From: a virus
DNA length: 22,158 nt
Direction: 5' to 3' (one strand)
IMG/VR virus record: IMGVR_UViG_3300025141_000862
Span: 1-22,158 of that record
The translations under genes were made by a program, and so were the position numbers. The stretch's first letter is position 1; each line of letters begins with the position of its first letter. The notes under the pieces were generated by a model. That model searched no databases. It was given only the letters and a program-made list of their open reading frames with translations, and had not been told where the DNA came from. Shown here in pieces: positions 1,923 through 13,313 of this stretch.

Positions 1923-1948
1923 ATAATTAAGTTTTCAAAACTAATTAT
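1923..1948 (+). repeat. AT-rich inverted repeat between bS21 and the next gene
   Basis: The arms 1923-1935 and 1937-1948 are complementary over 12 bp apart from one bulged A. No T tract follows and the stem has almost no G/C pairs, so terminator function is doubtful. Its 3' arm contains the intergenic motif ACTAATTAT (1940-1948). Confidence 0.4.
1940..1948 (+). promoter_or_regulatory. Intergenic motif ACTAWTTAW, copy 1
   Basis: Sequence ACTAATTAT, 21 bases before the ATG at 1970. One of six copies, one in each long intergenic gap. Candidate late promoter element or mRNA signal; function not proven. Confidence 0.45.
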
Positions 1949-1969
1949 AGAATGTTAGGAGTTTAATAA

Positions 1970-2377
1970 ATGCCAATTTATGAGTACAGAGCAGGATTAC
2001 AAAATGTCGGATCCTATCAAGTCGGCGGGACACCATATTTAACTGGAGCCGTCGTCGATCCTGCAAACCCAAATTTGGGTGAAGTTAAGATTTCTTTTCC
2101 GAATGTAACAAAAAATATTCTTGTTGTCAACGCGACGGCGAGTGTTCCAATCCGAGTTCATTTTAATTCTGCTGTAGATGGAAATGTTATTGGGGGGCAT
2201 CACTATTTTACGTTGGAAGATAAAAAAGACAGTATAACTTTTAATCAAAAGTGTAAAGAAATTTATATTTCACTGGAAACAACCACCTCGACGGGATCCT
2301 TTGAATTGGTTGCTGACTTAACTGGAATTAAAGACAATGAGATGTTCGCCTTAACTGGGTCGGGCCTTACAGATTAA
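1970..2377 (+). CDS. Small putative virion structural protein
   Basis: A 135-residue protein with a strong Shine-Dalgarno (taggag) 9 bases before the ATG. It is beta-rich and soluble, with alternating hydrophobic strands (NILVVNA, IRVHF, EIYISLETT, FELVADL) and no membrane or signal segment. I do not recognise a named family. It sits directly upstream of the scaffold and capsid genes, has its own upstream intergenic motif copy, and has a compact beta-sandwich-like pattern. A head decoration or other virion surface protein is a plausible inference. It shows no clear sequence relation to the paralog pair at 3-1023. Confidence 0.75.
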   Translation: MPIYEYRAGLQNVGSYQVGGTPYLTGAVVDPANPNLGEVKISFPNVTKNILVVNATASVPIRVHFNSAVDGNVIGGHHYFTLEDKKDSITFNQKCKEIYISLETTTSTGSFELVADLTGIKDNEMFALTGSGLTD

Positions 2378-2415
2378 TTCCTTATAATAAAAACGGTCAT
2401 TTTGTATTTCGAAAG

Positions 2416-2424
2416 ACTATTTAT
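2416..2424 (+). promoter_or_regulatory. Intergenic motif ACTAWTTAW, copy 2
   Basis: Sequence ACTATTTAT in the 77-base gap before the scaffold gene, ending 30 bases before its ATG. Same element as at 1940, 5258, 7998, 10907 and 12554. Confidence 0.5.
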
Positions 2425-2454
2425 TTGTGAGTAAATCTATAAGGGAATATATCT

Positions 2455-3453
2455 ATGTCTTCATTACTAGAACAAGCGATAATTGATGCAGCCGCTTTAA
2501 AAGAGGCAGCCATTAAAAATGCTGAATCTGCAATTTTGAATAAATATTCAACCGACATTAAAGAGGCGGTGGAAAGCTTGTTAGAGCAAGACGATGAGCT
2601 TGCCCTTGGTGCTGAGGATGGAATGGAATTATCTACTTCCTTGGAAGATAGTATTCCTCTTGCTGGTGCACCACCAGAATCAATCGATGAGCAAGAAATT
2701 GTATTAAGTATGGAAGAGCTTAAAGATATGGCCGAAGCTCTTGCTGATACAGAAGAAAATTTGATTGGTGAACCATCACCACACGAAAATCTTGTTGATG
2801 GTGTGCCGGGCACCGAGCCACCCTCGTCCCAAGAAGCGGAGACTTCATCTGTCCCTGTTGATGTAACCTTGGAAGAGGAAATAGATTTAGAAGATCTTGA
2901 TGAGATCTTGGAAGAACTCATCGTCGATATCGTTCCTGAAAAAAGCGGATGGGCTGGCACCCCCGGAACTATTATGGATTATAAAGAAGAATTGGCCTTG
3001 GCCCATCGCTCTGGAACAGAGGCACTAGCACAGGCAAAAGCATTGACACAGGCTGGAGAAAGACTTAGAGAGGCAAATAGAGACCTCAAATCAAAAAATA
3101 CAAAAATGATAAAAGCACTCCAGATCTTAAAAGAAAGTTTTAATAAAGTTAATCTCTCAAATGCGAGATTAGTTTACACGAATCAGGTATTAACAGACAA
3201 CTCCTTGAATGAGCGGCAAAAAAAGAAAATTGTCGAGGCTCTGTCAAAATCAGATTCTATTGAAGAAGCAAAGGTAATATTCGAAACTCTAAAAAGCGCG
3301 GTGGGAAGTGTATCAGGTAAAGCACGTCCACAATCACTACGCGAGACCATCGAAAGACCCTCTGCCACTTTACCTAGAAGAGCAGCCAGAACTGTTGAAT
3401 CTCCGGAAGCGGACAGGATGCAAATACTGGCTGGAATAAAGACAAACAAATAA
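2455..3453 (+). CDS. Prohead core scaffold protein (gp22-like)
   Basis: A 332-residue protein immediately upstream of the major capsid gene, the position of T4 gene 22. Residues 1-45 form an amphipathic helix rich in Ala and Glu (MSSLLEQAIIDAAALKEAAI). Residues 45-165 are very acidic and Pro/Ser-containing. Residues 175-285 are helical with coiled-coil character (GERLREANRDLKSKNTKM, then LNERQKKKIVEALS). The C-terminal tail is basic and Arg-rich. This acidic, helical make-up is typical of phage scaffolds. In T4 the core protein is degraded by the gp21 protease during maturation; several L-x-E tripeptides here could be cleavage sites. The ATG follows an agggaa Shine-Dalgarno and an intergenic motif copy. 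The capsid gene follows by 17 bases, and the two probably share a transcript ending at the terminator at 5219-5253. Confidence 0.75.
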   Translation: MSSLLEQAIIDAAALKEAAIKNAESAILNKYSTDIKEAVESLLEQDDELALGAEDGMELSTSLEDSIPLAGAPPESIDEQEIVLSMEELKDMAEALADTEENLIGEPSPHENLVDGVPGTEPPSSQEAETSSVPVDVTLEEEIDLEDLDEILEELIVDIVPEKSGWAGTPGTIMDYKEELALAHRSGTEALAQAKALTQAGERLREANRDLKSKNTKMIKALQILKESFNKVNLSNARLVYTNQVLTDNSLNERQKKKIVEALSKSDSIEEAKVIFETLKSAVGSVSGKARPQSLRETIERPSATLPRRAARTVESPEADRMQILAGIKTNK

Positions 3454-3470
3454 AGGAGATTTTTAAAATC

Positions 3471-5186
3471 ATGTCTATACTTAAAAAATTAACTGAAGGT
3501 ATTGTTCGTCGCGATCTATCTAAAGAAGGATCTGCTCTTCTCTCCAAGTGGGAAAAGACTGGACTTTTAGAGGGACTCGGGAACGAACGTGCTAAATATG
3601 GGATGGCAGCATTGCTAGAAAACCAAGCGAAGGAACTACTTCGTGAGGCTTCTACTATGGCCGGCACACCCTCTGGAGACGTTGAAGGTTTTGCTTCCGT
3701 CGCCTTTCCTATTGTCCGTCGAGTATTCGGCGGCCTAATCGCTAACGATCTTGTTAGCGTTCAACCAATGAGCCTTCCTTCGGGACTCATTTTCTTCCTG
3801 GATTTCACCTACGATCGTAATCGTCTTGATACCCTTAGTGGTTCTTCGATATACGGTGGTGGTGTTGTTGCATCGCAGATTACTGGTGGTGTTTCACTTG
3901 CTGGCGATCTCGCTGAACAAAGCTATTATGCTTTGAACAATGGGTATTCAAGTCCAACAGGATCCGCCAACTTCACATTGGCCGATTTTGCATCAGGTAC
4001 AGTCGGCTCTGGAGTTCCAGGCGACTGGACAGGCAACACAGCCACCGGCATCGCTCTCGCATTGCACGGTGATCGCCTAGTCCGCTTCGATCCAGACTTG
4101 GAATCAGGCTCTTTTGCTTGTGTTTCAACTTTGCCTCTGGCAACCCTCACCGCCGGCCAGTTTAACATTAAAGATCTCGTCACTGTGACTCTTAACGATG
4201 CAGCCGGTGTTGTCGATGTTAATCAAGTCAGACGCCTGACTCGTGATGACCCCGATACTGCTGGTTCTGTCTTACTGGTTAACGCAGGGCTCGCATCTGC
4301 CAACGCCTGCGCAACCGACCTTGTTTTACAGAATACAGCATCATTTGTTATTGATGACAACTTCGCCGCCATTGGCGCGGTTGGTTCTGTATCTGGTCTA
4401 GATACATGGGGATTGGAAAACAATGCGGCAATTCCAGAAATTGACATCAAGGTTGATTCTGTGGCTGTCACTGCGAAGACCAAGAAACTCAAAGCGAAAT
4501 GGACACCAGAATTGGCTCAAGACTTGAACGCATACCATAACTTGGATGCCGAAGTCGAATTGACCTCAATTCTGTCCGAGCACATCGCTCTTGAAATCGA
4601 CCAAGAAATCTTGGAAGATCTCGTGAAGGGTGCTACTGCTGAAACCTTGTTCTGGTCACGACTTCCTGGTAAATTTGTAAATCGGACAACTGGTGCACCA
4701 CTAATTCCAACTAGTGGGTTTCCTGACTTCACGGGTAATGTATCCGAGTGGTATGAAACCTTGATTGAGACCATCAATGATGTCTCGGCCCAAATTCACC
4801 GCAAGACCCTTCGAGGCGGCGCTAACTTCATCGTGTGTTCACCTGAAGTTGCTAACCTCCTTGAGTTTACCGCTGGATTCCGTGGTGCCGTGACTCACGA
4901 TGATGATCGTGGTCAAGTTGGTGCTGTTAAAGTCGGCTCTTTGAGCAAGAAGTTTGACGTTTACGTCGATCCTTACTTCCCACGGAACGTTGTTCTCGCA
5001 GGACGTAAAGGTTCTTCTTTCCTTGAAAGCGGATATGTGTACGCACCGTATGTACCTCTCCAGATGACTCCAACAATCTTCGGTACCGAGGACTTCGTGC
5101 CGCGCAAAGGCGTCATGACTCGATATGCCAAGAAGATGGTCCGCCCGGATATGTACGGCTTGGTCGTCGTTCAAGATTTGTCATAG
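3471..5186 (+). CDS. gp23: Major capsid protein (T4 gp23-like)
   Basis: A 571-residue protein (T4 gp23 is 521) forming the head lattice. The N-terminal LLSKWEKTGLLEGL and ALLENQAKELL align with T4 LLNKWKPLLEG and IFENQEKDF. They are followed by AFPIVRRVFGGLIANDLVSV, like the gp23 region VRRAIPNLIAFDICGVQPM. T4 gp23 is cut by the prohead protease after FLTE; here the equivalent is L57-R58-E59 before A60, so mature protein probably starts at A60. An aaggag Shine-Dalgarno precedes the ATG. Codon use differs from the neighbours: arginine is almost always CGN rather than AGA/AGG and C-ending codons are common, as expected for the most abundant product. It follows the scaffold gene and ends just before a strong terminator. 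No separate vertex (gp24-like) gene is visible here. Confidence 0.93.
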   Translation: MSILKKLTEGIVRRDLSKEGSALLSKWEKTGLLEGLGNERAKYGMAALLENQAKELLREASTMAGTPSGDVEGFASVAFPIVRRVFGGLIANDLVSVQPMSLPSGLIFFLDFTYDRNRLDTLSGSSIYGGGVVASQITGGVSLAGDLAEQSYYALNNGYSSPTGSANFTLADFASGTVGSGVPGDWTGNTATGIALALHGDRLVRFDPDLESGSFACVSTLPLATLTAGQFNIKDLVTVTLNDAAGVVDVNQVRRLTRDDPDTAGSVLLVNAGLASANACATDLVLQNTASFVIDDNFAAIGAVGSVSGLDTWGLENNAAIPEIDIKVDSVAVTAKTKKLKAKWTPELAQDLNAYHNLDAEVELTSILSEHIALEIDQEILEDLVKGATAETLFWSRLPGKFVNRTTGAPLIPTSGFPDFTGNVSEWYETLIETINDVSAQIHRKTLRGGANFIVCSPEVANLLEFTAGFRGAVTHDDDRGQVGAVKVGSLSKKFDVYVDPYFPRNVVLAGRKGSSFLESGYVYAPYVPLQMTPTIFGTEDFVPRKGVMTRYAKKMVRPDMYGLVVVQDLS

Positions 5187-5218
5187 TATAATCTAGGACA
5201 CATTAACACAAAAAATGC

Positions 5219-5253
5219 CCCCCCTCCGTTTTCGGAGGGGGGTTTGTTTATTT
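5219..5253 (+). terminator. Intrinsic terminator after the capsid gene
   Basis: A perfect 10-bp G/C-rich stem (cccccctccg / cggagggggg) with a TTTT loop, followed by tttgtttattt. It is preceded by an A-rich stretch. It lies 32 bases after the capsid stop codon and is the only strong rho-independent terminator I see in the window. Confidence 0.92.
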
Positions 5254-5257
5254 GGAA

Positions 5258-5266
5258 ACTAATTAA
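5258..5266 (+). promoter_or_regulatory. Intergenic motif ACTAWTTAW, copy 3
   Basis: Sequence ACTAATTAA directly after the terminator and 16 bases before the ATG at 5283. A gene just past a strong terminator needs its own promoter, which supports a promoter reading of this element. Confidence 0.5.
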
Positions 5267-5282
5267 TGCGGAGGGATCATAA

Positions 5283-6548
5283 ATGGCATTGCCAACACTA
5301 ACACCAGCCAGCCAAATGAGCAAGGCGATATTGCCCACAACCGGTGCGGCCGCCGATGTCGCTGCAACACTTCCGCTTGGTATATATACATCTAATGCTT
5401 TTCTTTCTGGTGCCGCTGATCAAGTTGCTTATACATATAAGAAATTGGGTGGAGATGTCTTAGACATTGAAATGCTGGCCGGAAATGTTTATGCAAACTA
5501 TGAAGAAGCTGTTTTAGAATATAGTTATTTGGTCAATTTGCATCAATCAAAAAATATTCTCTCCAACGTTCTTGGACAAACAACGGGAACATTTGATCAG
5601 GATGGAAATGTTGTAACTGGGCCGACTAATGTTAATTTAAAATTCCCCCGTGTTACTTTCGAATATGAAAGAAGGGTGGCTGATAATTTTTCTTTCAATG
5701 CTGATGTCGGAGGAACAATTCCAATTTATTCGGCATCTTTCGAGATTACAGAGCAAGAGCAAGATTATGATTTACAAGCAATTATATCAGGATCGTCCGC
5801 TAGCGGCTTGCAGCCCAACGGCGACCCTGCCCCATTCGCAGGTATTGTTGGAAATAAGAGGGTTATAATCAAAAAAGTCTTCTTTAAGACACCTGCTGCA
5901 ATGTGGAGGTTCTTCGGATATTACGGAGGATTGAATGTTGTCGGAAACCTTTTGTATTATGGACAATATACTGATGATTCCTCTTTCGAGGTAATCCCTG
6001 TATGGCAGAATAAGTTACAGGCGAAGGCCTACGAAGACCACTTGTTCACACGCCTATCTCACTATTCATATGAATTAAAGGACAATAAATTAAGAATATT
6101 TCCTCAGCCACAACTGGTAGGCATATATAGGTTTATGTGGGTTGAATTTTCAGTTATACCTGATAGCTGGGATGAGGCTTCCGATGTGGATACTGGAATA
6201 GGTGGGGTTAATAATATTAATACTATTCCTTTCGATAATCTTCCCTATGAAAATATTAATGCGATAGGAAAACAATGGATCCGAAGATTTGCTTTGGCCC
6301 TATCGAAAGAGACTCTTGGTCAAATTCGAGGAAAATTCAATCCCATTCCAATTCCAGGATCGGATATTACCTTAAATGCATCCGATCTCTTAAGTCAAGC
6401 CCAGAATGAACAAGAAAAATTACGAGAAGAATTAAAGACAATTTTGGATGAGTTAACCTATGCAGAATTGGCCAAGAGAGATGCAGAAACAACGGAGGCG
6501 GTCAATACGATACAAACAAAAGTGCCAATGTTGATTTTCCAAGGATAA
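5283..6548 (+). CDS. gp13: Neck protein (T4 gp13-like)
   Basis: A 421-residue protein (T4 gp13 is about 309). Near the N-terminus, KLGGDVLDIEM (54-64), followed by an acidic helix VYANYEEAVLEYSYLV, matches the gp13-family pattern LG-x-P-V-x-x-I/V-E at the start of a helical domain. The middle part carries strands around 190-295. The C-terminal KQWIRRFALALSKETLGQIR, then KFNPIPIPGSDITLNAS (330-367) and a long helix, match the gp13-family ending: aromatic/basic helix, LALxKxxxGxxxxKF, PGG-x-TLNG, long helix. In T4, gp13 and gp14 close the DNA-filled head and receive the tail. A gcggaggga Shine-Dalgarno precedes the ATG. Extra length is mostly around residues 100-190. The next gene starts 8 bases later with GTG. 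Confidence 0.72.
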   Translation: MALPTLTPASQMSKAILPTTGAAADVAATLPLGIYTSNAFLSGAADQVAYTYKKLGGDVLDIEMLAGNVYANYEEAVLEYSYLVNLHQSKNILSNVLGQTTGTFDQDGNVVTGPTNVNLKFPRVTFEYERRVADNFSFNADVGGTIPIYSASFEITEQEQDYDLQAIISGSSASGLQPNGDPAPFAGIVGNKRVIIKKVFFKTPAAMWRFFGYYGGLNVVGNLLYYGQYTDDSSFEVIPVWQNKLQAKAYEDHLFTRLSHYSYELKDNKLRIFPQPQLVGIYRFMWVEFSVIPDSWDEASDVDTGIGGVNNINTIPFDNLPYENINAIGKQWIRRFALALSKETLGQIRGKFNPIPIPGSDITLNASDLLSQAQNEQEKLREELKTILDELTYAELAKRDAETTEAVNTIQTKVPMLIFQG

Positions 6549-6556
6549 ATATATAA

Positions 6557-7429
6557 GTGAGCAGCAAAAAAGACCAATTTGATGATGGTTTCAGACCTTA
6601 TTTTCCCGAGGAAAAAAAGGCCACTGTCCCTGCACTGAAAGAAATTACCTTCATGCCCTCTACCATCGAGACAATCGATTACGCCCTGCACAATTGGATA
6701 AACGAAGAATTGGATATTTTTTGTTCGACCAACCAAGGGTGGAAGAAGGTGCCAATTATTTGGGTGTTGCCGGAAAGGGCATACCAGATAAAAGACAATA
6801 AGGATTTAAGAAATAAAGATAATATTTTTACCCTTCCCGTCCTAACAATAGAGAGAGATTCAGTAATAAAAGACCCGAATATGAAAGGGGTCGTGCAAGC
6901 CCACATTCCCAGCATAAATGATGCAAAGGGCGGAGCGATTACGGTTGCCAGAAGGATTCAACAAGAGAAAAGTGCAAATTTCGCCAATGCAGACGCATAT
7001 CGTCTTTACGGCCAAAATACTTATCGTAGAAAAAATAAAAAGGTTGTTTACGAAACAATGACAATGCCAATTCCAGTTTATGTCGTGGCAAATTATAAAA
7101 TAACGATTAAAACAGAATACCAACAACAAATGAATGAAATTTTCACTCCGTTTATTGTAAAGACTGGTCAAATTAATGATTTTTTTATTAAGAAAGACGG
7201 CCATAAATTTGAAGGCTTCATTCAGGGAGATTTTGGCTTAGCGAACAATGTTTCTAATTTAGGAGAAGAGGAAAGAAAATTTGAAACTACCATTAATTTA
7301 AAAATATTGGGTCATTTAATCGGATCAGATAAAAATGATGAACAACCAAAAATTACCATTCGTGAATCAGCGGCCGAAATTAGAATTACACGAGAAAGGG
7401 TGATGCTTGGCGACAAAAAGGAATATTAA
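6557..7429 (+). CDS. gp15: Tail completion / sheath stabiliser (T4 gp15-like)
   Basis: A 290-residue protein (T4 gp15 is 272). It starts with GTG, with a weak aagga about 11 bases upstream. Similarities to gp15 in order: WKKVPIIWVLPERAY (65-79) matching the FIRVPITYASKEHF region; a Leu-rich LPVLTIERDSVIKDP segment matching LPRINLHLVDFSYNAP; PIPVYVVANYKITIKTEYQQ followed by MNEIFTPFIV, matching SPIKMIYELSIFTRYEDD; and ERKFETTINLKILGHLI near 237-253 matching RRRIEWSLTFEVNGWM. gp15 forms a hexameric ring on top of the completed tail that stabilises the sheath and meets the neck. The flanking gp13-like and sheath genes agree with this. The family match is by eye; a search could shift it to a related terminator family. 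Confidence 0.68.
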   Translation: MSSKKDQFDDGFRPYFPEEKKATVPALKEITFMPSTIETIDYALHNWINEELDIFCSTNQGWKKVPIIWVLPERAYQIKDNKDLRNKDNIFTLPVLTIERDSVIKDPNMKGVVQAHIPSINDAKGGAITVARRIQQEKSANFANADAYRLYGQNTYRRKNKKVVYETMTMPIPVYVVANYKITIKTEYQQQMNEIFTPFIVKTGQINDFFIKKDGHKFEGFIQGDFGLANNVSNLGEEERKFETTINLKILGHLIGSDKNDEQPKITIRESAAEIRITRERVMLGDKKEY

Positions 7430-7434
7430 TAATC

Positions 7435-7932
7435 ATGGCTGATAATGAGTGGAAAAAGCCTTCAAATCCGCCACCTCCGCTTTTTTTAGGAGAAAAAGAA
7501 AGAGACCTAGTAAAACAGGTTAATGATGAGCTTATGGAGCGCGTCATCGGACAGGCCATAACATATTTCCCACTTTCCATGGAGAGAACTAATTTTCATC
7601 CACTTTACGGAGAGGCAATAGAAAAGTGTTTTCTTCCCCCCGTTAGGGTATATGTTCTTGTAGAATTTGACGGCATAGGGACAATCACAGAAAATTATGG
7701 GTTAGATAAGACTTATTCTTTGACGGTCAGGTTCCATGAAAGAAGATTATATGAAGATCAAGACCTTTATGTGAGAGAGGGAGACTATATACAGTATGGG
7801 TCTTCATTCTTTGAGATTGTAACACTCACAGAAGAGAGAGAAATATTTGGTCAAGTTGAGGCAAGATTTCAGTTATCGGCCAAGTGTATTAAATCGAGAA
7901 AGGGGTTGATGGAATTCAAGGTTGTTTCTTAA
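7435..7932 (+). CDS. Head-closure/neck protein candidate (gp14-like)
   Basis: A 165-residue protein whose ATG is only 5 bases after the previous stop. The N-terminal 45 residues are helical and charged after a Pro-rich start (NPPPPLFLGEKERD). The rest is a beta-rich domain: FHPLYGEA, PPVRVYVLVEFDG, YSLTVRFHERRLYE, and the signature REGDYIQYGSSFFEIVTL. The E-G-D-x-I/Y ... F-E-I pattern is common in head-closure and neck proteins, including gp14 of T4-type phages, but this protein is much shorter than T4 gp14 (256). Together with the gp13-like and gp15-like genes upstream it would complete the neck set. Family assignment is tentative. Confidence 0.55.
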   Translation: MADNEWKKPSNPPPPLFLGEKERDLVKQVNDELMERVIGQAITYFPLSMERTNFHPLYGEAIEKCFLPPVRVYVLVEFDGIGTITENYGLDKTYSLTVRFHERRLYEDQDLYVREGDYIQYGSSFFEIVTLTEEREIFGQVEARFQLSAKCIKSRKGLMEFKVVS

Positions 7933-7953
7933 ATTTAAAGAAAGCTGGGATGA

Positions 7954-7996
7954 TTGTAGAGAGCCTATAATTATTGTAGACTTTGAAATTTGTAGA
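7954..7996 (+). repeat. Three direct TTGTAGA repeats in the sheath leader
   Basis: TTGTAGA occurs at 7954-7960, 7974-7980 and 7990-7996, with start-to-start spacing of 20 and 16 bases. The third copy is followed immediately by motif copy 4. They lie in the longest gap between genes here (122 bases) and could be operator or activator half-sites, or chance in AT-rich DNA. Confidence 0.5.
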
Positions 7997-7997
7997 G

Positions 7998-8006
7998 ACT
8001 ATTTAT
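7998..8006 (+). promoter_or_regulatory. Intergenic motif ACTAWTTAW, copy 4
   Basis: Sequence ACTATTTAT, ending 48 bases before the sheath ATG; this is the longest spacing of the six copies. A 16-base perfect AT palindrome (8024-8039) lies between it and the aggaga Shine-Dalgarno. Confidence 0.5.
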
Positions 8007-8023
8007 TAAAGAAAGAGCAATCT

Positions 8024-8039
8024 AATTTTAATTAAAATT
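8024..8039. repeat. 16-base AT palindrome before the sheath RBS
   Basis: The sequence aattttaattaaaatt is its own reverse complement and touches the aggaga ribosome-binding site at 8041. With no G/C pairs, any hairpin would be weak; a dimeric protein site is equally possible. Confidence 0.4.
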
Positions 8040-8054
8040 TAGGAGAAGCATTAG

Positions 8055-10892
8055 ATGTCAGTAAGAAAATTTAAGTTTGTTTCGCCGGGAGTTTTTGTCA
8101 AAGAAATTGACAATTCCCAACTTCCAGCCGTAGACACACCAGCCGGTCCTATAATTTTCGGGCGGCTCCCGCAAGGTCCGGGAATGCGACCTGTTAAGAT
8201 CGACTCGTTTTCGGATTTTGTCCAGACATTCGGAAATCCTATTCCTGGGAAGGCCACTGGAGATGTCTGGAGAGATGGAAACCACCAGGGGACCACTTAT
8301 GCTTCATATGCTGCTCAGGCTTACCTAAGAGCGGATGTTGGATCTATTACGGTTATGAGGCTTCTTGGTGAAGCAAACGCCGATGCTGTGAATCCAGATG
8401 GGTATGCTGGGTGGCAAACAGTCCAGTCGCCCGCAACAGCGGTTTCAGATAACGGAGGGGCATATGGGATCTTTATATGTCAATCTGGCTCTGGAGCTAC
8501 CAAATCAGGTCATTTGGGTGCAATTTTTTATATGGATTCTGGCTCTGCCCTTATTCTTACCGGAACCGTGGCCCATACGGGAACCGCAATTGTCTCTGGT
8601 GGCGCCGCAGGACTATTCGAGGCCGCATCTGATACCCCCGAATGGACAGCCGCAATTTCTAATAGCACTGGGGAAATTTATAAAAGTTCCTTCAATTTTG
8701 ACAGAAATAGTTCAAGATTTATTAGAAATGTTTTTAATACTAATCCACAAACAGTTAATTCTGCTGTCGTTCCCTCTGGCGGCTTCTCTAACGGTGAAAC
8801 TGAATATTGGCTTGGTGAAAGTTTCGAATCTTATATCGCAGAAAAGATGGGCGATGGTACTTTGGGCACCTCCTCTTACGCAGTAGTTTTGGCTGTAAAA
8901 GAGAAAGATGATCAACGCCAGGATTCCCAACTAGCTCATACTGGATGGTTTTTCTCACAAGATTTGTCAAGTAATACTGGCTCTTATGAGGCCAGCAAGA
9001 TGAAAGATTTATTCCGGTTGCATGCGAGAGATGCAGGTTCGTGGCTACAAAATAATTTAAAAGTATCAATTCAAGATTTAAAATATTCAAGAAATGCAGC
9101 AGGAATCAATCCTTTTGGAAGCTTCACGGTTCTCTTGAGGAAGGCAGATGATACAGATAACGTTGTAGAGGTTATCGAAAGATATTCCAATTGTAACCTA
9201 AACCCCAATTCAGATAATTATATCGCGCGCAAGATCGGCGACAGAGTTGTGAATTGGAATACAACAACAAAGGTTCTTCAAGAGCTGGGGACATATGCCA
9301 ACATTTCTAAATATATCAGAGTGGAAGTACATCCCGATGTAGAAAATGGCCAAATCGATCCACGATTGTTGCCATTTGGAGTTTATGGGCCCGAAAAGCT
9401 CATTGATATAGCTGCGCAGCCCACAGCGATGAGCCCTACAAGTGTTTTATATAACGGTGACGACATCGCGTTGAGCATGTGCACCAGTCCAGCTCCAAAT
9501 TTATTCAGCGGCACACTCCCGACCTATGGCTTAACTTGTTCTTTCCCTGATACACAAGTTCGTATCTCTGCGTCGGCCGGCGCCCTCACAAATCCCCAAG
9601 ATGCTTATTTTGGTCTAAATGTTTCTTCTTATCTCGAAATTACGGGTGAAGGAAGCAACAGGCCAGATGAAGGATATGGTGATTATCTTTATTCCATTCC
9701 GCCAAATTTCCGGGATTCCACTAACTTGACTTATCAGTGGATTGTAAGCCTCGATGATTTGATTTTAACCGGCTCGAATGTTGTTTACTGGCAATCGGGA
9801 TCGAGATCTGACGGAGACTCAATCACAGCGGGCGGAACTTATCAAACTCTGGTTGATACAGGATACACGAGATTCACATCTCCATTTTATGATGGTTTCG
9901 ACGGCCTGGATATTATAGAAATTGAGCCATTTAGGAACACCCTTTTAAGTGAGGGGAGTACCTTAACTAACTATGCTCAAAATACTATCCGACGAGCAAT
10001 TGACACGGTTGCCGATTCTGAGTTTATAGAGTGTAATATGATGAGCATGCCGGGATTGACAGATGCAACACTTACCGAACATATGATTCAGGTTTGTGAA
10101 GACCGGGGAGATGCCCTGGCTATTATCGACATCCCAGGCGCCTATACCCCGTTTTCGGAGGGAACTGCATATTATAGCAATGCTGCCAATAGAGTTGGAA
10201 CTGTTTCGAGCACGGTCTCAACCTTGGAATCGAGACAAATTAATAGCTCCTATGGTTGCACCTATTACCCATGGGTTCAGATTAAAGATACCATTAACGG
10301 GAATCTTGTATGGGTACCCCCAAGTATTATAGCATTGGGTACATTTGCAAGCTCTGAGGCTGTATCGGAACTGTGGTTTGCTCCCGCAGGATTTAATCGC
10401 GGTGGACTTACCGAAGGCTCAGCCGGGATTCCGGTCTTGAATGTGACCTACAGATTGACCTCTAAAGACAGAGATGATTTGTACGAAGCAAGTATTAATC
10501 CTATAGCCTCTTTCCCGAATGAGGGATTGGTAATCTTTGGTCAGAAAACGCTACAATCGGTACCCTCTGCACTTGATAGAATCAATGTTCGAAGAATGTT
10601 GATTTATGTTAAAAAACAAATTTCACTGATGGCGTCTAGCATTCTTTTCGACCCCAATGTACAAGTTACTTGGAATAGATTCAAATCGCAAGCAGAGCCA
10701 TTCCTTTCAAGTGTCCAGACAAGACTGGGAATAAGCGAATACAAATTAGTTCTAGATAAGAGTACAACTACTCCAGATTTAGTTGACCAGAATATTGTAT
10801 ATGCTAAAATCTTCTTGAAACCCACTAGAGCAATTGAATTCATCGCAATTGATTTCATAATTACGAACACTGGAGCGGGTTTTGAAGATTAA
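8055..10892 (+). CDS. gp18: Tail sheath protein (T4 gp18-like)
   Basis: A 945-residue contractile sheath subunit, far longer than T4 gp18 (659). The N-terminus, FVSPGVFVKEIDNSQ followed by PAGPIIFGRLPQGPG and later SITVMRLLG, is the standard sheath start. The C-terminal domain is also typical: YEASINPIASFPNEGLVIFG, QKTLQSVPSALDRINVRRML, YVKKQISLMASSILFDPN and a final strand EFIAIDFIIT. These ends form the inner, sheath-to-sheath and sheath-to-tube contacts. The extra length lies in the middle, from about residue 110 to 560, and includes Gly/Ser/Thr-rich beta stretches, so it probably makes protruding outer domains. Strong aggaga Shine-Dalgarno. Preceded by the 122-base leader with motif copy 4 and followed by the tube gene after 44 bases. 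Confidence 0.93.
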   Translation: MSVRKFKFVSPGVFVKEIDNSQLPAVDTPAGPIIFGRLPQGPGMRPVKIDSFSDFVQTFGNPIPGKATGDVWRDGNHQGTTYASYAAQAYLRADVGSITVMRLLGEANADAVNPDGYAGWQTVQSPATAVSDNGGAYGIFICQSGSGATKSGHLGAIFYMDSGSALILTGTVAHTGTAIVSGGAAGLFEAASDTPEWTAAISNSTGEIYKSSFNFDRNSSRFIRNVFNTNPQTVNSAVVPSGGFSNGETEYWLGESFESYIAEKMGDGTLGTSSYAVVLAVKEKDDQRQDSQLAHTGWFFSQDLSSNTGSYEASKMKDLFRLHARDAGSWLQNNLKVSIQDLKYSRNAAGINPFGSFTVLLRKADDTDNVVEVIERYSNCNLNPNSDNYIARKIGDRVVNWNTTTKVLQELGTYANISKYIRVEVHPDVENGQIDPRLLPFGVYGPEKLIDIAAQPTAMSPTSVLYNGDDIALSMCTSPAPNLFSGTLPTYGLTCSFPDTQVRISASAGALTNPQDAYFGLNVSSYLEITGEGSNRPDEGYGDYLYSIPPNFRDSTNLTYQWIVSLDDLILTGSNVVYWQSGSRSDGDSITAGGTYQTLVDTGYTRFTSPFYDGFDGLDIIEIEPFRNTLLSEGSTLTNYAQNTIRRAIDTVADSEFIECNMMSMPGLTDATLTEHMIQVCEDRGDALAIIDIPGAYTPFSEGTAYYSNAANRVGTVSSTVSTLESRQINSSYGCTYYPWVQIKDTINGNLVWVPPSIIALGTFASSEAVSELWFAPAGFNRGGLTEGSAGIPVLNVTYRLTSKDRDDLYEASINPIASFPNEGLVIFGQKTLQSVPSALDRINVRRMLIYVKKQISLMASSILFDPNVQVTWNRFKSQAEPFLSSVQTRLGISEYKLVLDKSTTTPDLVDQNIVYAKIFLKPTRAIEFIAIDFIITNTGAGFED

Positions 10893-10906
10893 AAATAAAT
10901 TTATCA

Positions 10907-10915
10907 ACTATTTAA
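10907..10915 (+). promoter_or_regulatory. Intergenic motif ACTAWTTAW, copy 5
   Basis: Sequence ACTATTTAA in the 44-base gap between sheath and tube genes, ending 21 bases before the tube ATG. Confidence 0.45.
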
Positions 10916-10936
10916 AGATACAGGAGAAACAATATT

Positions 10937-11488
10937 ATGGCTGGTAGTGATTTTTGGACGAGTGCCAATGTAGAACCAAAAAGAAAATATAGATTTTTAG
11001 TGCAATTCGCTGGGGGCGGATCTGATATTGGACAGATGTGGTTTGCAAAAACTGTTAAAAAGCCAGAAATTTCAGTAAACGCCCAAGAACATGCTTATCT
11101 TAACCACAAATTTTATTTTCCCGGCACGGTAGAATGGGCCTTGGTCACAATGACCTTGGTGGACCCAGTTTCCCCCGATGCCGCCCAACAGATGGCGCAG
11201 ATTTTAGACAGGTCTGGATATCCAGGCCCTAAAGAGTTGAATGATCCCAACCCGGAAACCATATCAAAGTTTAAATCTGTAGCTTCCTTGGGACAAGTTA
11301 AAATAACACAAATCGATTCAGAGGGAAATTCCATTGAGGAATGGACACTGAACAACGCTTTTATTACAAAGGTCGCTTATGGTGAGTTATCTTACGGTGA
11401 TGACGCTCTAACGGAGATCTCTTTAGATATCCGATACGATTGGGCCACACTGAATACTTCCACAGGCGCCCAATTCTGGCAGACATAA
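10937..11488 (+). CDS. gp19: Tail tube protein (T4 gp19-like)
   Basis: A 183-residue protein (T4 gp19 is 163). The start SDFWTSANVEPKRKYRFLVQ, then MWFAKTVKKPEISV, WALVTMTLVDP and the C-terminal LNNAFITKVAYGELSYGDD with DIRYDWATL are the hallmarks of the gp19 tube fold. Hexamer rings stack to form the tail lumen inside the sheath. It lies directly after the sheath as in T4 18-19. A caggaga Shine-Dalgarno precedes the ATG. A second, longer paralog is encoded at 12585. Confidence 0.92.
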   Translation: MAGSDFWTSANVEPKRKYRFLVQFAGGGSDIGQMWFAKTVKKPEISVNAQEHAYLNHKFYFPGTVEWALVTMTLVDPVSPDAAQQMAQILDRSGYPGPKELNDPNPETISKFKSVASLGQVKITQIDSEGNSIEEWTLNNAFITKVAYGELSYGDDALTEISLDIRYDWATLNTSTGAQFWQT

Positions 11489-11509
11489 TTTATACAATTG
11501 AGGTGATAT

Positions 11510-12364
11510 TTGTCTAGAAATAGCAAGAGAACGAATGCTGGGCTTGAGCCCACGCGCCCTGATGTGGCCGATCCAGCAATACAAAACGCAAGTCATAATT
11601 TAACCTTTTCAGCCCCAACAGAACATGTAGACCTTCCCTCCAGGGGGAGATACTATTCCGAGGGTCATCCTTTGCACAATAAGGATACTATTGAAATCAA
11701 ATATATGACAGCAAAAGAGGAAGACATTTTGACTTCCAGAAATCTTTTGAAAAAGGGCCTAGCAATTGAGAGGCTATTATCAAGCATTATTATTGATAAA
11801 ACAATTGATCCGGGCTCTCTCCTTATTGGAGATAGGAACGCCCTTATCGTTGCCGCAAGAATTACAGGATTTGGCGAGGAGTATGAAACAAAAGTACAAT
11901 GCCCCGCTTGTGCGGCAAATGTTGATCATACCTTTGATTTAACAAATGTATCTGTAAATTATGCGGAAGAGGTTCCCGAGGAAGTTCAGGCGACGGATGG
12001 GAATACTTTTATTGTTTCTCTTCCAATAATGAAAATTGATATTGAACTTAAATTATTGGAAGGTCACGATGAAAGGCGTATTATACAGCTACAAGAAAAC
12101 AAAAGAAAGAAGAAGTTGCCGGAAACTCCTCTCACCGACCAGCTAAGTGCCATTATCCAGTCCGTAAACGGAAGTGGAGACAGAAGCTCTATTAATTCTC
12201 TGGTTAATATGATGCCAGCTAAAGACACAAGATATCTTCGACGCCTTTATGATCGAGTTATCCCTAATGTCGATATGTCGCACAATTTTGAATGCACCGA
12301 ATGTGGGTATTTGACAGATTTGGAGGTTCCGTTTACGACGGACTTTTTTTGGCCTAAGCGATGA
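11510..12364 (+). CDS. Zinc-ribbon baseplate hub protein (T4 gp26-like)
   Basis: A 284-residue protein starting with TTG, supported by gaggtga 3-9 bases upstream. Family signatures: LPSRGRYYSEG (42-52), IEIKYMTAKEEDIL (61-74), a KKGLAIERLLSSII helix, and GDRNALIVAARITGFGEEY (107-125). Two CxxC pairs (C131-x-x-C134 and C262-x-x-C265) form a split zinc ribbon. T4 gp26 (208 residues) is a baseplate hub component needed for hub assembly. The C-terminus reads FTTDFFWPKR and its codons contain a T7 run (12344-12350); the +1 frame continues past the stop into a conserved-looking 57-residue sequence, suggesting a frameshifted longer product. In position (after the tube, before the tape measure) it matches the tape-measure chaperone genes of other phages. 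Confidence 0.75.
   Translation: MSRNSKRTNAGLEPTRPDVADPAIQNASHNLTFSAPTEHVDLPSRGRYYSEGHPLHNKDTIEIKYMTAKEEDILTSRNLLKKGLAIERLLSSIIIDKTIDPGSLLIGDRNALIVAARITGFGEEYETKVQCPACAANVDHTFDLTNVSVNYAEEVPEEVQATDGNTFIVSLPIMKIDIELKLLEGHDERRIIQLQENKRKKKLPETPLTDQLSAIIQSVNGSGDRSSINSLVNMMPAKDTRYLRRLYDRVIPNVDMSHNFECTECGYLTDLEVPFTTDFFWPKR
12344..12364 (+). other. Candidate programmed frameshift site
   Basis: A run of seven T (12344-12350) at the codons FF-W, four codons before the gp26-like TGA at 12362. In the +1 (equivalently -2) frame there is no stop from 12315 to 12536 and no ATG, GTG or TTG start before 12396. A -1 shift would meet TAA at 12355. A GGAGG at 12322-12326, 17 bases upstream of the run, could act as an internal ribosome-pausing site. 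Tail assembly chaperones use such shifts in lambda (-1), P2 (-1, T-run) and Mu (-2). Confidence 0.5.
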
Positions 12365-12398
12365 ATATATAAAGAACGTTTATGAAGAGTTCTTTTTG

Positions 12399-12536
12399 AT
12401 GAAATACCATGGCGGCTGGAGCTTCATTGAAGCATATAACCTGCCCATTCGCATTAGGCGGTGGTTTCTTGAGAGAATGGTTCAGCAAATAGAGAAAGAA
12501 GCTGAGCAAATGAATAAGTCCAACAAATCAATGTGA
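12399..12536 (+). CDS. Small chaperone-like protein or frameshift extension of the gp26-like gene
   Basis: A 45-residue reading frame from the first ATG (12399), with only a weak gaagag upstream. Coding character starts earlier: the frame reads DEYIKNVYEEFFL from 12360, before any start codon, then KYHGGWSFIEAYNLPIRIRR, WFLERMVQQIEKEAEQ and a polar tail. The aromatic/LP-x-x-x-RRWF helix pattern followed by a charged helix looks like a real small phage protein found next to gp26-type genes (possibly gp51-like), though I cannot confirm the family. The lack of a start upstream of the coding-like residues suggests translation mainly by frameshift from the gp26-like gene, giving a fused product of about 341 residues. 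A separate 45-residue product is the alternative. Confidence 0.6.
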   Translation: MKYHGGWSFIEAYNLPIRIRRWFLERMVQQIEKEAEQMNKSNKSM

Positions 12537-12553
12537 TAATTAATTCTTCAATA

Positions 12554-12562
12554 ACTATTTAT
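12554..12562 (+). promoter_or_regulatory. Intergenic motif ACTAWTTAW, copy 6
   Basis: Sequence ACTATTTAT, ending 22 bases before the ATG at 12585, in the 48-base gap after the gp26-like/small-frame unit. The surrounding actatttataaaag is the closest in the window, read in reverse, to the T4 late promoter TATAAATA. Confidence 0.5.
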
Positions 12563-12584: not shown

Positions 12585-13313
12585 ATGCCAAATGGTTTTT
12601 GGACAGACGCTGAGTGGTCACCGAGATCAAAAAATAGATTTATTGTTGAACTGTATGCACCATATGCCGCCAATATCAATGGGTTGCATTGGTATGCAAA
12701 ATCTGTAACTCTTCCATCTTTCGAAATTGGGAAGGAAGAAATTAAAAATAACATCGGCGCCGCACAACGTCATGTCTTCGCTCGCAAAATGTCCTGGAAG
12801 CCAGTAACTCTGGTATTGGTAGATCCGATAGATCTCAAAACCCCCAACGATGCGAAGCGCAGCGATATCGGCCGCCCCGGCGTTGGATCGCTTGACCACG
12901 CCGCCGCCGGAATCACCGCCGCTTCGGCCGCCGCCGCCGCTGTAGCCACCGCCACCGCCACCACTAAAAAAAATATAGTTAATTCATTTATCTCTGCACT
13001 TAATCAGATCTTTAGAGGTGACAGCCGCATATATAAAGGCGCCACAAATGTAAGCAAGGAAAAGATGAACGCGGGGTTCAGATCTGTTATAATAAAATCT
13101 TTAAATAATTATGGACAAATAATTGATCAGTGGAAATTAAATAATATAATATTAACCGGAATGGATATGGGCACTCTTTCATATACAGACGACGCACCCT
13201 TTGAGTTAACTCTAACATTTGAATATGAGTGGGCTGACTATGAGCTAGATCCGGAAAATGAGTCGAATGAAAATAAAAAAGTTTTTACGGGAGAAAATAA
13301 TCCATGCGGATAA
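12585..13313 (+). CDS. Second tail-tube-like protein with Ala/Thr-rich insert
   Basis: A 242-residue paralog of the tube protein at 10937. Shared features: NGFWTDAEWSPRSKNRFIVE at the start, LHWYAKSVTLPSFEI, SWKPVTLVLVDPIDL, and LNNIILTGMDMGTLSYTDD with TFEYEWADY near the end. Between the tube strands, residues about 100-126 (HAAAGITAASAAAAAVATATA) form a low-complexity Ala/Thr linker absent from the first copy, encoded by a tract of about 74% GC (12841-12960) in an otherwise AT-rich region. A gaaggga/ggagat Shine-Dalgarno precedes the ATG. It may form a specialised ring at one tube end or near the baseplate; the role is inferred. The stop overlaps nothing if the next gene starts at 13330. 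Confidence 0.8.
   Translation: MPNGFWTDAEWSPRSKNRFIVELYAPYAANINGLHWYAKSVTLPSFEIGKEEIKNNIGAAQRHVFARKMSWKPVTLVLVDPIDLKTPNDAKRSDIGRPGVGSLDHAAAGITAASAAAAAVATATATTKKNIVNSFISALNQIFRGDSRIYKGATNVSKEKMNAGFRSVIIKSLNNYGQIIDQWKLNNIILTGMDMGTLSYTDDAPFELTLTFEYEWADYELDPENESNENKKVFTGENNPCG

Follow-up and report, generated by a model that had tools for sequence, protein, structure and literature searches.

The nine-base word ACTAWTTAW that recurs in the long intergenic gaps of this phage DNA very probably carries the on-switch for late genes. We consider it highly probable that its copies belong to two-part late promoters read by a two-domain relative of the T4 sigma factor gp55, alongside a promoter class that has no upstream part. 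An eight-base box, a second element at fixed spacing, a tie to the starts of virion genes and co-occurrence with a sigma gene were all found by computation. The box would be the downstream part (-13 to -6) of late promoters in a large branch of the T4 superfamily, most of it uncultured, to which the named relatives Flavobacterium phage immuto and Microcystis phage Mel-JY01 belong. The complete promoter is predicted to read GTCWTTT (-33 to -27), 13 bases, ACTAWTTA (-13 to -6), 5 bases and a purine start. Working with host RNA polymerase, a gp55-family sigma encoded by the phage would read the box through its sigma-2 domain, an extra C-terminal sigma-4-like domain of the same protein would probably read the upstream element, and shared starts would produce late units, for example scaffold-capsid and connector-neck. 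This would provide a recognisable promoter for a large phage group (at least 600 stretches in a capsid search) that is known almost only from metagenomes.

Within the window, meaning the whole 22,158-base stretch that was analysed, an exact search located six copies of the 9-mer, all on the + strand and exactly where the initial annotation had placed them (Table 1), with none elsewhere on either strand; 100 shuffles of the window gave a mean of 1.22 copies and 4 at most. The gene junctions numbered 21, taken from the ORF list with the starts 12360, 13330 and 21903 set by hand. Each of the six gaps of at least 40 bases (50, 77, 96, 122, 44 and 48) held one copy, and the 15 junctions of 25 bases or less held none, not even the looser word WCTANTTA. 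Were the small ORF at 12360-12536 not a true gene, this would only lengthen the last gap. An order-1 Markov model of the six gaps, simulated 20,000 times, left every gap empty in 18,930 runs; one gap was filled in 1,045 runs and two in 25. Copies with one mismatch to the 9-mer were near chance (42 versus 35.1 expected, with at least 42 in 15 of 100 shuffles), and this looser definition of the motif was dropped for want of clear enrichment. The distances to the start codons likewise agreed with the annotation, as did the terminator before the copy at 5258, which has perfect 10-bp arms at 5219-5228 and 5233-5242. The G-run and T-run of this terminator lie approximately at the upstream-element site of that box, with a TTT at 5243-5245, one base off. 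Of the six window copies, three have no upstream TTT and a fourth has it one base out of place.

Table 1 Predicted late promoter elements and terminator in the window. Distance is from the last base of the 9-mer to the start codon, in bases.
Feature	Sequence (ninth base)	Position	Strand	Context	Distance	Predicted +1	Remarks
-10-like late box	ACTAATTA(T)	1940..1948	+	before 135-aa gene at 1970	21		no upstream TTT; position +13 is T1953, next base G1954
Upstream element (-33 to -27)	GTCATTT	2396..2402	+	13 bases before scaffold box			based on sequence, consensus and scans
-10-like late box	ACTATTTA(T)	2416..2424	+	before putative scaffold gene at 2455	30	G2429
Intrinsic terminator		5219..5252	+	follows capsid gene, precedes 5258 box
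-10-like late box	ACTAATTA(A)	5258..5266	+	before head-tail connector gene at 5283	16	G5271
Partial upstream element	AGACTTT	7978..7984	+	sheath box			TTT at expected place
-10-like late box	ACTATTTA(T)	7998..8006	+	before tail sheath gene at 8055	48	G8011
-10-like late box	ACTATTTA(A)	10907..10915	+	before tail tube gene at 10937	21	A10920	upstream TTT absent
-10-like late box	ACTATTTA(T)	12554..12562	+	before second tail tube gene at 12585	22	G12567	upstream TTT absent

Strong enrichment of the motif in long intergenic gaps extended to 81 related contigs. The top word of their long gaps was ACTATTTA, present in 185 of 378 gaps versus 3.1 expected, although these gap counts are not independent because the contigs share ancestry. 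Called ORFs contained 10 of the 25 box copies on one long contig and 9 of the 19 on another. The nine-base form of the motif was upheld for an eight-base core, and its ninth base proved loose, with only G rare (T.48, C.25, A.23 and G.03 in 246 copies from relatives). A better core, obtained from a single-substitution table, was [A/T]CTA[T>A>C>G]TTA, in which six of the eight positions tolerate almost no change. Position -13 accepts A or T, -9 accepts any base, -8 is weakly A and the others are nearly invariant; variants such as ACTACTTA occur in long gaps. The box in the 378 long gaps was WCTANTTA and not the T4-type consensus NATAAATA or CTAAATA, and the T4 word TATAAATA (4 versus 3.5 expected) and CTAAATA (7 versus 7.9) stayed at background. 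The strand was also fixed, ACTAWTTAW occurring 170 times forward and once in reverse in these gaps. The suggestion of a T4 late box in inverted orientation, made for three copies, draws on ACTATTTAT, which reads ATAAATAGT when reversed. We regard it as hardly credible: the reversed word is nearly missing from long gaps, the copies reading ACTAATTA and ACTACTTA do not fit a flipped box, and the forward register accounts for four of the eight letters of the T4 box and for the C of Aeromonas phage Aeh1, going by the accessible part of the literature on those phages.

Ahead of the box, a TTT stood at -16 to -14 relative to it in 102 of 175 flank-filtered copies, compared with an average of 7.4 and a maximum of 20 at offsets outside -19 to +10. 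The two-part consensus in the relatives was GTCWTTT-N13-ACTAWTTA-N5-purine. A purine occupied the predicted +1 in 85% of copies and the next base in 79%, with a G peak of.50; among separately scanned copies with distinct spacers, 79% had a purine at the predicted +1 (controls, 46-52%). This peak lies at the distance expected for an 8-bp box at -13 to -6, from which we infer the start site. A bare-DNA scan of IMG/VR for GTCATTT-N13-box led to a scaffold gene at 70 of 117 matches, as against 3 of 120 with N12, 0 of 120 with N14 and 0 of 120 with the reversed box. Some homologue of the window was found at 76 loci for N13, 23 for N12, 7 for N14 and 7 for the reversed box. Matches outside called genes numbered 89 of 117 for N13, 90 of 120 for N12, a count partly due to repeated sequences (54 distinct spacers), 53 of 120 for N14 and 58 of 120 for the reversed box.

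Such a fixed spacing bears on a rival explanation, which we judge possible though unlikely. The box alone might be the sigma site, the T-run near -30 reflecting bent DNA, polymerase contact or leftover overlap with terminators, and the C-terminal domain of the sigma might have another job, for example binding the flap or a phage protein. T-runs and terminators are indeed common before these boxes, most tube and all 135-aa promoters are without the upstream element, and the assignment of the sigma-4 domain rests on Z scores of at most 7.7. However, the pattern of G, G/T and C before the T-run persisted in 95 copies that had no detected terminator in the gap (T at -14 in 93%), allowing that the terminator finder could overlook some hairpins, and GTCATTT led to the scaffold gene at N13 and hardly at all one base to either side.

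The two-part late promoter would also account for where the box is placed. As in the window, the box in relatives preceded the starts of virion genes: scaffold in 52 of 55 orthologs (upstream TTT in 52 of 52), sheath in 54 of 56 (TTT in 40 of 54), connector in 47 of 73 (TTT in 41 of 47), tail tube in 25 of 38 (TTT in 4 of those) and the 135-aa gene in 13 of 23 (TTT in 0 of those 13). The scaffold, sheath and connector promoters carry a fixed upstream TTT, where T4-type late promoters have no -35 element, and the tail tube and 135-aa genes form the second class, without the upstream part. No box preceded the orthologs of capsid (0 of 75), second neck (0 of 65), tail completion (0 of 48) or hub (0 of 30). 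The box occurred in 210 of 359 long gaps of virion loci versus 2 of 129 of sigma-gene loci, the latter being the neighbourhood of the sigma gene and not a proven early region; this is the placement seen for T4-type late promoters. Host promoters have the consensus TATAAT and TTGACA. A promoter for host sigma-70 or a host alternative sigma, used early or throughout infection, would share the typical layout of two elements and a spacer. Nevertheless, the box resembles TATAAT poorly, the upstream part differs from TTGACA, and few copies of the box occur among the non-virion genes surrounding the sigma gene, which makes a host promoter quite improbable.

Where a gap had a detected terminator, 67 boxes lay after it and 3 before, where uniform placing would give 32 of 69. 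We had expected such gaps to carry the box more often; the opposite was seen, ACTAWTTA being rarer in gaps with a terminator (69 of 130) than in those without (162 of 248, p 0.026), with the proviso that box variants such as ACTACTTA also occur. The box always lies on the sense strand near the ribosome site, as would a signal acting in late mRNA leaders through processing, stability or translation with no promoter involved. This explanation is very improbable: in relatives the start codon stands at no set distance from the box (mostly 15 to 65 bases) whereas the spacing of the upstream element and the purine is fixed, the boxes lie downstream of terminators, and their register and letters resemble the late boxes of T4 and Aeh1, to the extent that the available source text describes these.

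A candidate reader of the predicted late promoter is encoded in relatives. The gp55-like sigma that the initial annotation proposed to look for was present in long relatives by profile search, with no sigma gene within the 22,158-base window, which makes up the whole record, and of 12 long contigs 9 carried both the sigma and the capsid gene. At an E cutoff of 0.01, nearly all members of the sigma family (46 of 48) matched phrog_234, the late-sigma family (best E 4.4e-9), a profile that at E 1 also matches in 7 of 14 control genomes. The immuto relative was marginal against it (0.008) and was not matched in another search, and phrog_12791 matched T4 alone among eight records. Identity to T4 gp55 was 15%, hhalign of the family against the single T4 protein gave a probability of 1.2, and searching solved structures with the family's sequences returned no match. 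The top structural match of the sigma model (pTM of the whole 0.45) was T4 gp55 in the open complex, 7d7c (7d7c_F; Z 11.1, 119 residues, 3.7 A), tied with SigB (Z 10.8); helical bundles can reach such scores through their arrangement alone. With that caution the model has a sigma-2 fold. Matches over two domains had an rmsd of at least 14 A, and Foldseek with the model gave no E below 0.001. The C-terminal 96 residues are modelled as four helices (pLDDT 89.3). The first seven VIA matches of this domain, with Z falling from 7.7 to 5.5, were sigma region 4 or sigma factors, and Foldseek returned no sigma region 4 match for it; the domain models as sigma region 4, and the relatives' sigma would then depart from the gp55-family trait of having no domain 4. 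The annotated sigma of RM378 was rejected as a counterpart, being an ordinary region 2 plus 4 protein; among 30 upstream regions in the RM378 stretch examined, one had the box.

T4 late transcription is the classic coupling of gene expression to DNA replication, in which a 'split sigma' made of gp55 and the sigma-4 mimic gp33 is driven by the replication clamp gp45. The T4 late box lies at -13 to -6, and Aeh1 has the late box CTAAATA conserved before late gene orthologs, according to the available part of the source (PMC1524935). The box described here shares T-11, A-10, T-7 and A-6 with the T4 box, its predicted position, its use before virion genes and a gp55-family sigma with a similar modelled sigma-2 fold. 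The claim of a late promoter unlike that of T4 held for its behaviour and its letters, while place and use agree with T4. Its C at -12, free -9 and T at -8 fall on the three bases that T4 gp55 flips into pockets, as the accessible text on that structure has it. Aeh1 shares the C at -12 and keeps A-9 A-8. T4 late promoters are without an upstream element in the sources as available, and the part of the Aeh1 account at hand mentions none. The relatives' sigma is about 50 to 70 residues longer than that of T4, with a sigma-4-like end in the model. Furthermore, profiles of gp33 and gp45 recovered the T4 control and matched nothing at E 1 in any of 10 relatives, though diverged proteins may escape such profiles and contigs may be incomplete. 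A family A DNA polymerase was present in 8 of 8 IMG/VR relatives, with no family B match there.

Taken further, late transcription may be clamp-free across the branch, a two-domain gp55 homologue reading a two-part promoter and the T4 split sigma being one of two solutions; we offer this tentatively, as about an even chance. The same reading would have the box letters change at bases read by T4 gp55, with matching changes in its pockets at N13 and T99. Changes at these two residues track the box letters in 12 aligned sequences. H95 does not, because it is F in the group and also F in cyanophage Syn1. With box and sigma changing in pairs, the specificity of sigma-2 can be put to the test. If clamp-free reading is true, the branch represents the state before the T4 split or a later fusion, and the origin of the T4 system becomes directly testable.

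Both named relatives have a relative of the same sigma and the word TATTTAT in gaps of their virion-gene stretches (17 of 29 in immuto and 11 of 18 in Mel-JY01; reverse word, 4 and 2). They differ in that A is often at -12 and ACTAWTTA is found in 5 of 29 and 0 of 18 of those gaps. Exact copies were less one-stranded there (24 versus 9 in immuto, 17 versus 7 in Mel-JY01). An EM motif search recovered a TTC-TATATTT-like motif in immuto and a weaker one in Mel-JY01. On the T4 control it returned a purine-rich, ribosome-site-like motif and missed the late box, and given this failure we relied on word counts. Upstream regions with TATTTAT and ATAAATA numbered 25 and 10 of 72 in immuto, 18 and 10 of 84 in Mel-JY01, and 7 and 13 of 22 in the T4 late stretch. 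Among the matches listed from the open-access PMC literature, no title or abstract opening dealt with a -35-bearing gp55 promoter or with this box. The letters ACTATTTA do occur, within a terminator table in the available part of a Felix O1 paper and within a primer in that of a T4 protein paper.

Every copy of ACTAWTTAW reported in the initial annotation was found at exactly the position given, and neither strand of the window holds a further one. Each of the six gaps of at least 40 bases contains one copy, as had been claimed, and the other 15 of the 21 gene junctions contain none; in 20,000 simulations of the six gaps, at most two were filled in any run. The label of scaffold, given there to the gene at 2455, fits its position ahead of the capsid gene but is not supported by PHROG profiles.

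Positions of features in the window and the basis of their assignment
Feature	Position	Basis or remark
Putative late promoter box (six copies)	1940, 2416, 5258, 7998, 10907, 12554 (starts)	ACTAWTTAW
Neighbouring ORFs, tandem duplicate	3-497, 511-1023	70% identity across 164 residues
Small gene like phage ribosomal protein S21	1698-1919	phrog_21469, E 0.0005
Major head protein	3471	PHROG profile phrog_138
Head-tail adaptor	5283	PHROG profile, match spans 64 residues
Sheath	8055	PHROG profile
Tube (two genes)	10937-11488, 12585-13313	same PHROG profile (phrog_4542), own box each
Baseplate hub	11510	PHROG profile
Baseplate wedge	16838	PHROG profile

As the genome record consists of the window alone, wider tests were made on relatives. 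A capsid protein search of IMG/VR matched at least 600 stretches, of which 80 loci were retained; the best matches among named phages were Microcystis phage Mel-JY01, in which RpsU is annotated a short way ahead of the capsid gene, and Flavobacterium phage immuto, followed by an uncultured phage and Rhodothermus phage RM378. The set analyzed comprised 81 contigs (window included) with 378 gaps of at least 40 bases, whose counts are not independent because the contigs are mutually related. In our ranking, the most enriched 8-mer of these gaps was ACTATTTA, present in 185 (3.1 expected), against 36 copies in the 927 kb called as coding. ACTAWTTAW was forward in 170 cases and reversed in one, T4-type words stayed at background level in the 378 gaps, and ACTANTTA was present in 259 and absent from 119. 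Single-base changes counted in the same gaps defined the tolerated letters: A (185) or T (29) at -13; C, T and A, and nothing else, at -12, -11 and -10; T (185), A (47), C (22) or G (8) at -9; T at -8, with A in 8 (1.4 expected); and T, then A, at -7 and -6. Whole-contig copies were strongly one-stranded (25 vs 0, 19 vs 0, and 35 vs 4), with a weaker bias in immuto (24 vs 9) and Mel-JY01 (17 vs 7). Some copies also sat a long way from the virion module, and in two contigs 10 of 25 and 9 of 19 lay within called ORFs, so that exact matches taken by themselves predict too many sites. The box is very probably a late promoter element.

When junctions were sorted by the ortholog of the following gene, the box preceded scaffold (52/55), sheath (54/56), connector, i.e., head-tail adaptor (47/73), tube (25/38), 135-aa (13/23), and 109-aa (13/19) genes, less often the 756-aa (4/18) and S21-like (1/26) genes, and 36 of 282 genes lacking a window counterpart. 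It was found before no capsid (0/75), second neck (0/65), tail completion (0/48), or hub (0/30) gene; all remaining classes had one to six members. In G008, whose capsid is the closest among 12 long contigs (80%), the box lies ahead of the scaffold, sheath, S21-like, 135-aa, and 109-aa orthologs; ahead of the connector and tube orthologs stands the variant ACTACTTA instead. Long gaps carried the box in 210 of 359 cases at virion loci versus 2 of 129 at sigma-gene loci, and copies over all DNA numbered 326 forward and 11 reverse versus 37 and 19, respectively.

A position table of 246 copies revealed conserved letters 14 to 20 bases 5' of the box and, at box position 13, a purine. Because terminators occupy the upstream region in many gaps, copies were split by terminator presence. 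The letters persisted in the 95 copies from gaps without a detected terminator (G.53, then G.55 or T.38, C.48, one free base, and T.80,.85,.93). After copies with similar flanks were thinned to 175, TTT occurred at -16 to -14, counted from the first box base, in 102 (mean 7.4 and maximum 20 at offsets away from the box), and 16 of the 29 occurrences of GTCWTTT across all offsets began at -20. This upstream element would cover -33 to -27 from the inferred start. Within one base, TTT was present in 52/52 scaffold, 40/54 sheath, and 41/47 connector predicted promoters, but in 4/25 for the tube and 0/13 for the 135-aa gene, which sets two classes of predicted promoter apart. In the window, GTCATTT accompanies the 2416 copy only, TTT is in place at 7998 and one base off at 5258, and the copies at 1940, 10907, and 12554 are without it.

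We then scanned IMG/VR DNA for GTCATTT-N13-ACTATTTA, with N12, N14, and reversed-box N13 patterns as controls; each pattern had at least 119 or 120 matches, so that the contents of the listed matches are comparable and the totals are not. Among the N13 matches listed, 117 were examined (93 distinct spacers), and 78 lay outside called genes and at most 120 bases 5' of a same-strand gene, which was a scaffold ortholog in 70 cases and sheath in 2. Of the 120 listed for each control, 20 (N12; scaffold 3), 16 (N14; scaffold 0, sheath 1), and 15 (reversed; scaffold 0) were suitably placed. A purine stood at the predicted +1 in 79% of listed distinct-spacer copies for N13, and in 52, 51, and 46% for the controls. 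Scaffold promoters of this group had contributed to the pattern, so what the scan validates is its spacing and orientation, not a new set of genes.

The gp55-like sigma anticipated in the initial annotation was found in relatives: the T4 gp55 profile (phrog_234) matched in three of seven searched (G002, 1.6e-10; G001, 2e-5; immuto, 0.008), although at E 1 it also matched in 7 of 14 control genomes. With the G002 protein as query, 149 relatives were recovered in IMG/VR. Further matches were to immuto (2e-13), Mel-JY01 (6e-7), and an uncultured phage (1e-12), plus two weak ones (1e-4 and 3e-3) to records whose annotation is late sigma; 46 of 48 aligned members matched phrog_234 at E 0.01 or better. 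Of 12 long contigs, 11 carried the sigma family, 10 the capsid, and 9 both. These proteins are longer than T4 gp55 (232 to 256 residues in four examples versus 185) and, by eye, lack its clamp-binding C-terminal tail; a C-terminal stretch, IEIFNKKAIYLYxREITGLNTKQVV, is among their best-conserved parts. For the AlphaFold model (mean pLDDT 81.6, pTM 0.45), the top alignment was to T4 gp55 in 7d7c (Z 11.1), with SigB (10.8) close behind, along with other two-domain sigmas, whose rmsd was large. The last 96 residues modelled alone (pLDDT 89.3, pTM 0.76) gave its best alignments to sigma-H (Z 7.7), region 4 of SigA (6.2), and region 4 of sigma-E on its -35 DNA (5.9), all below the level that excludes a chance arrangement, with signal recognition particle domains next (5.5). 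In Foldseek, neither model had a hit with E below 0.001. The sigma seems to possess a domain able to read the upstream element, and we consider it slightly better than an even chance that its domain 4 does so.

In a passage of PMC7892883, T4 gp55 flips non-template A-12, A-9, and A-8 into pockets with Y97, N13/H95, and T99. In that register, the present box has -12 and -8 changed, -9 freed, and A or T at -13, a position described as loose in T4 relatives also (passage in PMC1524935). In a remote alignment of four T4-type gp55s and eight relatives' sigmas, N13 and T99 are retained in all four of the former; in the latter, the N13 position carries T in seven and D in one, the T99 position carries S in seven and Q in one, and Y97 is unchanged. 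Box letters and these residues appear to go together, as a correlation. TATTTAT occurred in 17/29 virion-stretch gaps of immuto and 11/18 of Mel-JY01, and its reverse in 4/29 and 2/18. Of the initial description of a late promoter unlike the T4 box, the letters do differ and an upstream element is added, while place and use are probably T4-like.

Profiles of gp45 and gp33 at E 1, with T4 as positive control, had no match in eight IMG/VR relatives, immuto, or Mel-JY01. Family A DNA polymerase is encoded by immuto and by all eight (G001, G002, G006-G011); the eight gave no family B match, and T4 and Mel-JY01 have family B. A clamp-independent late mechanism is plausible, and we give the entire clamp-free reading just short of an even chance.

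Terminators are often placed with their G-run and T-run at or near the upstream element (window 5219-5252 and terminator gaps of relatives), and one stretch may act as both; the end of the stem most often lay 12-15 bases from the box. Inspection by eye shows a hairpin, G/C-rich and with a T-rich loop, that ends right at the box 5' of the tube gene in four virion loci of relatives (L007, L008, L017, and L038; e.g., GTGGGAGG...CTCCCAC-ACTATTTA), unlike a normal terminator, in which the T-run comes after the stem.
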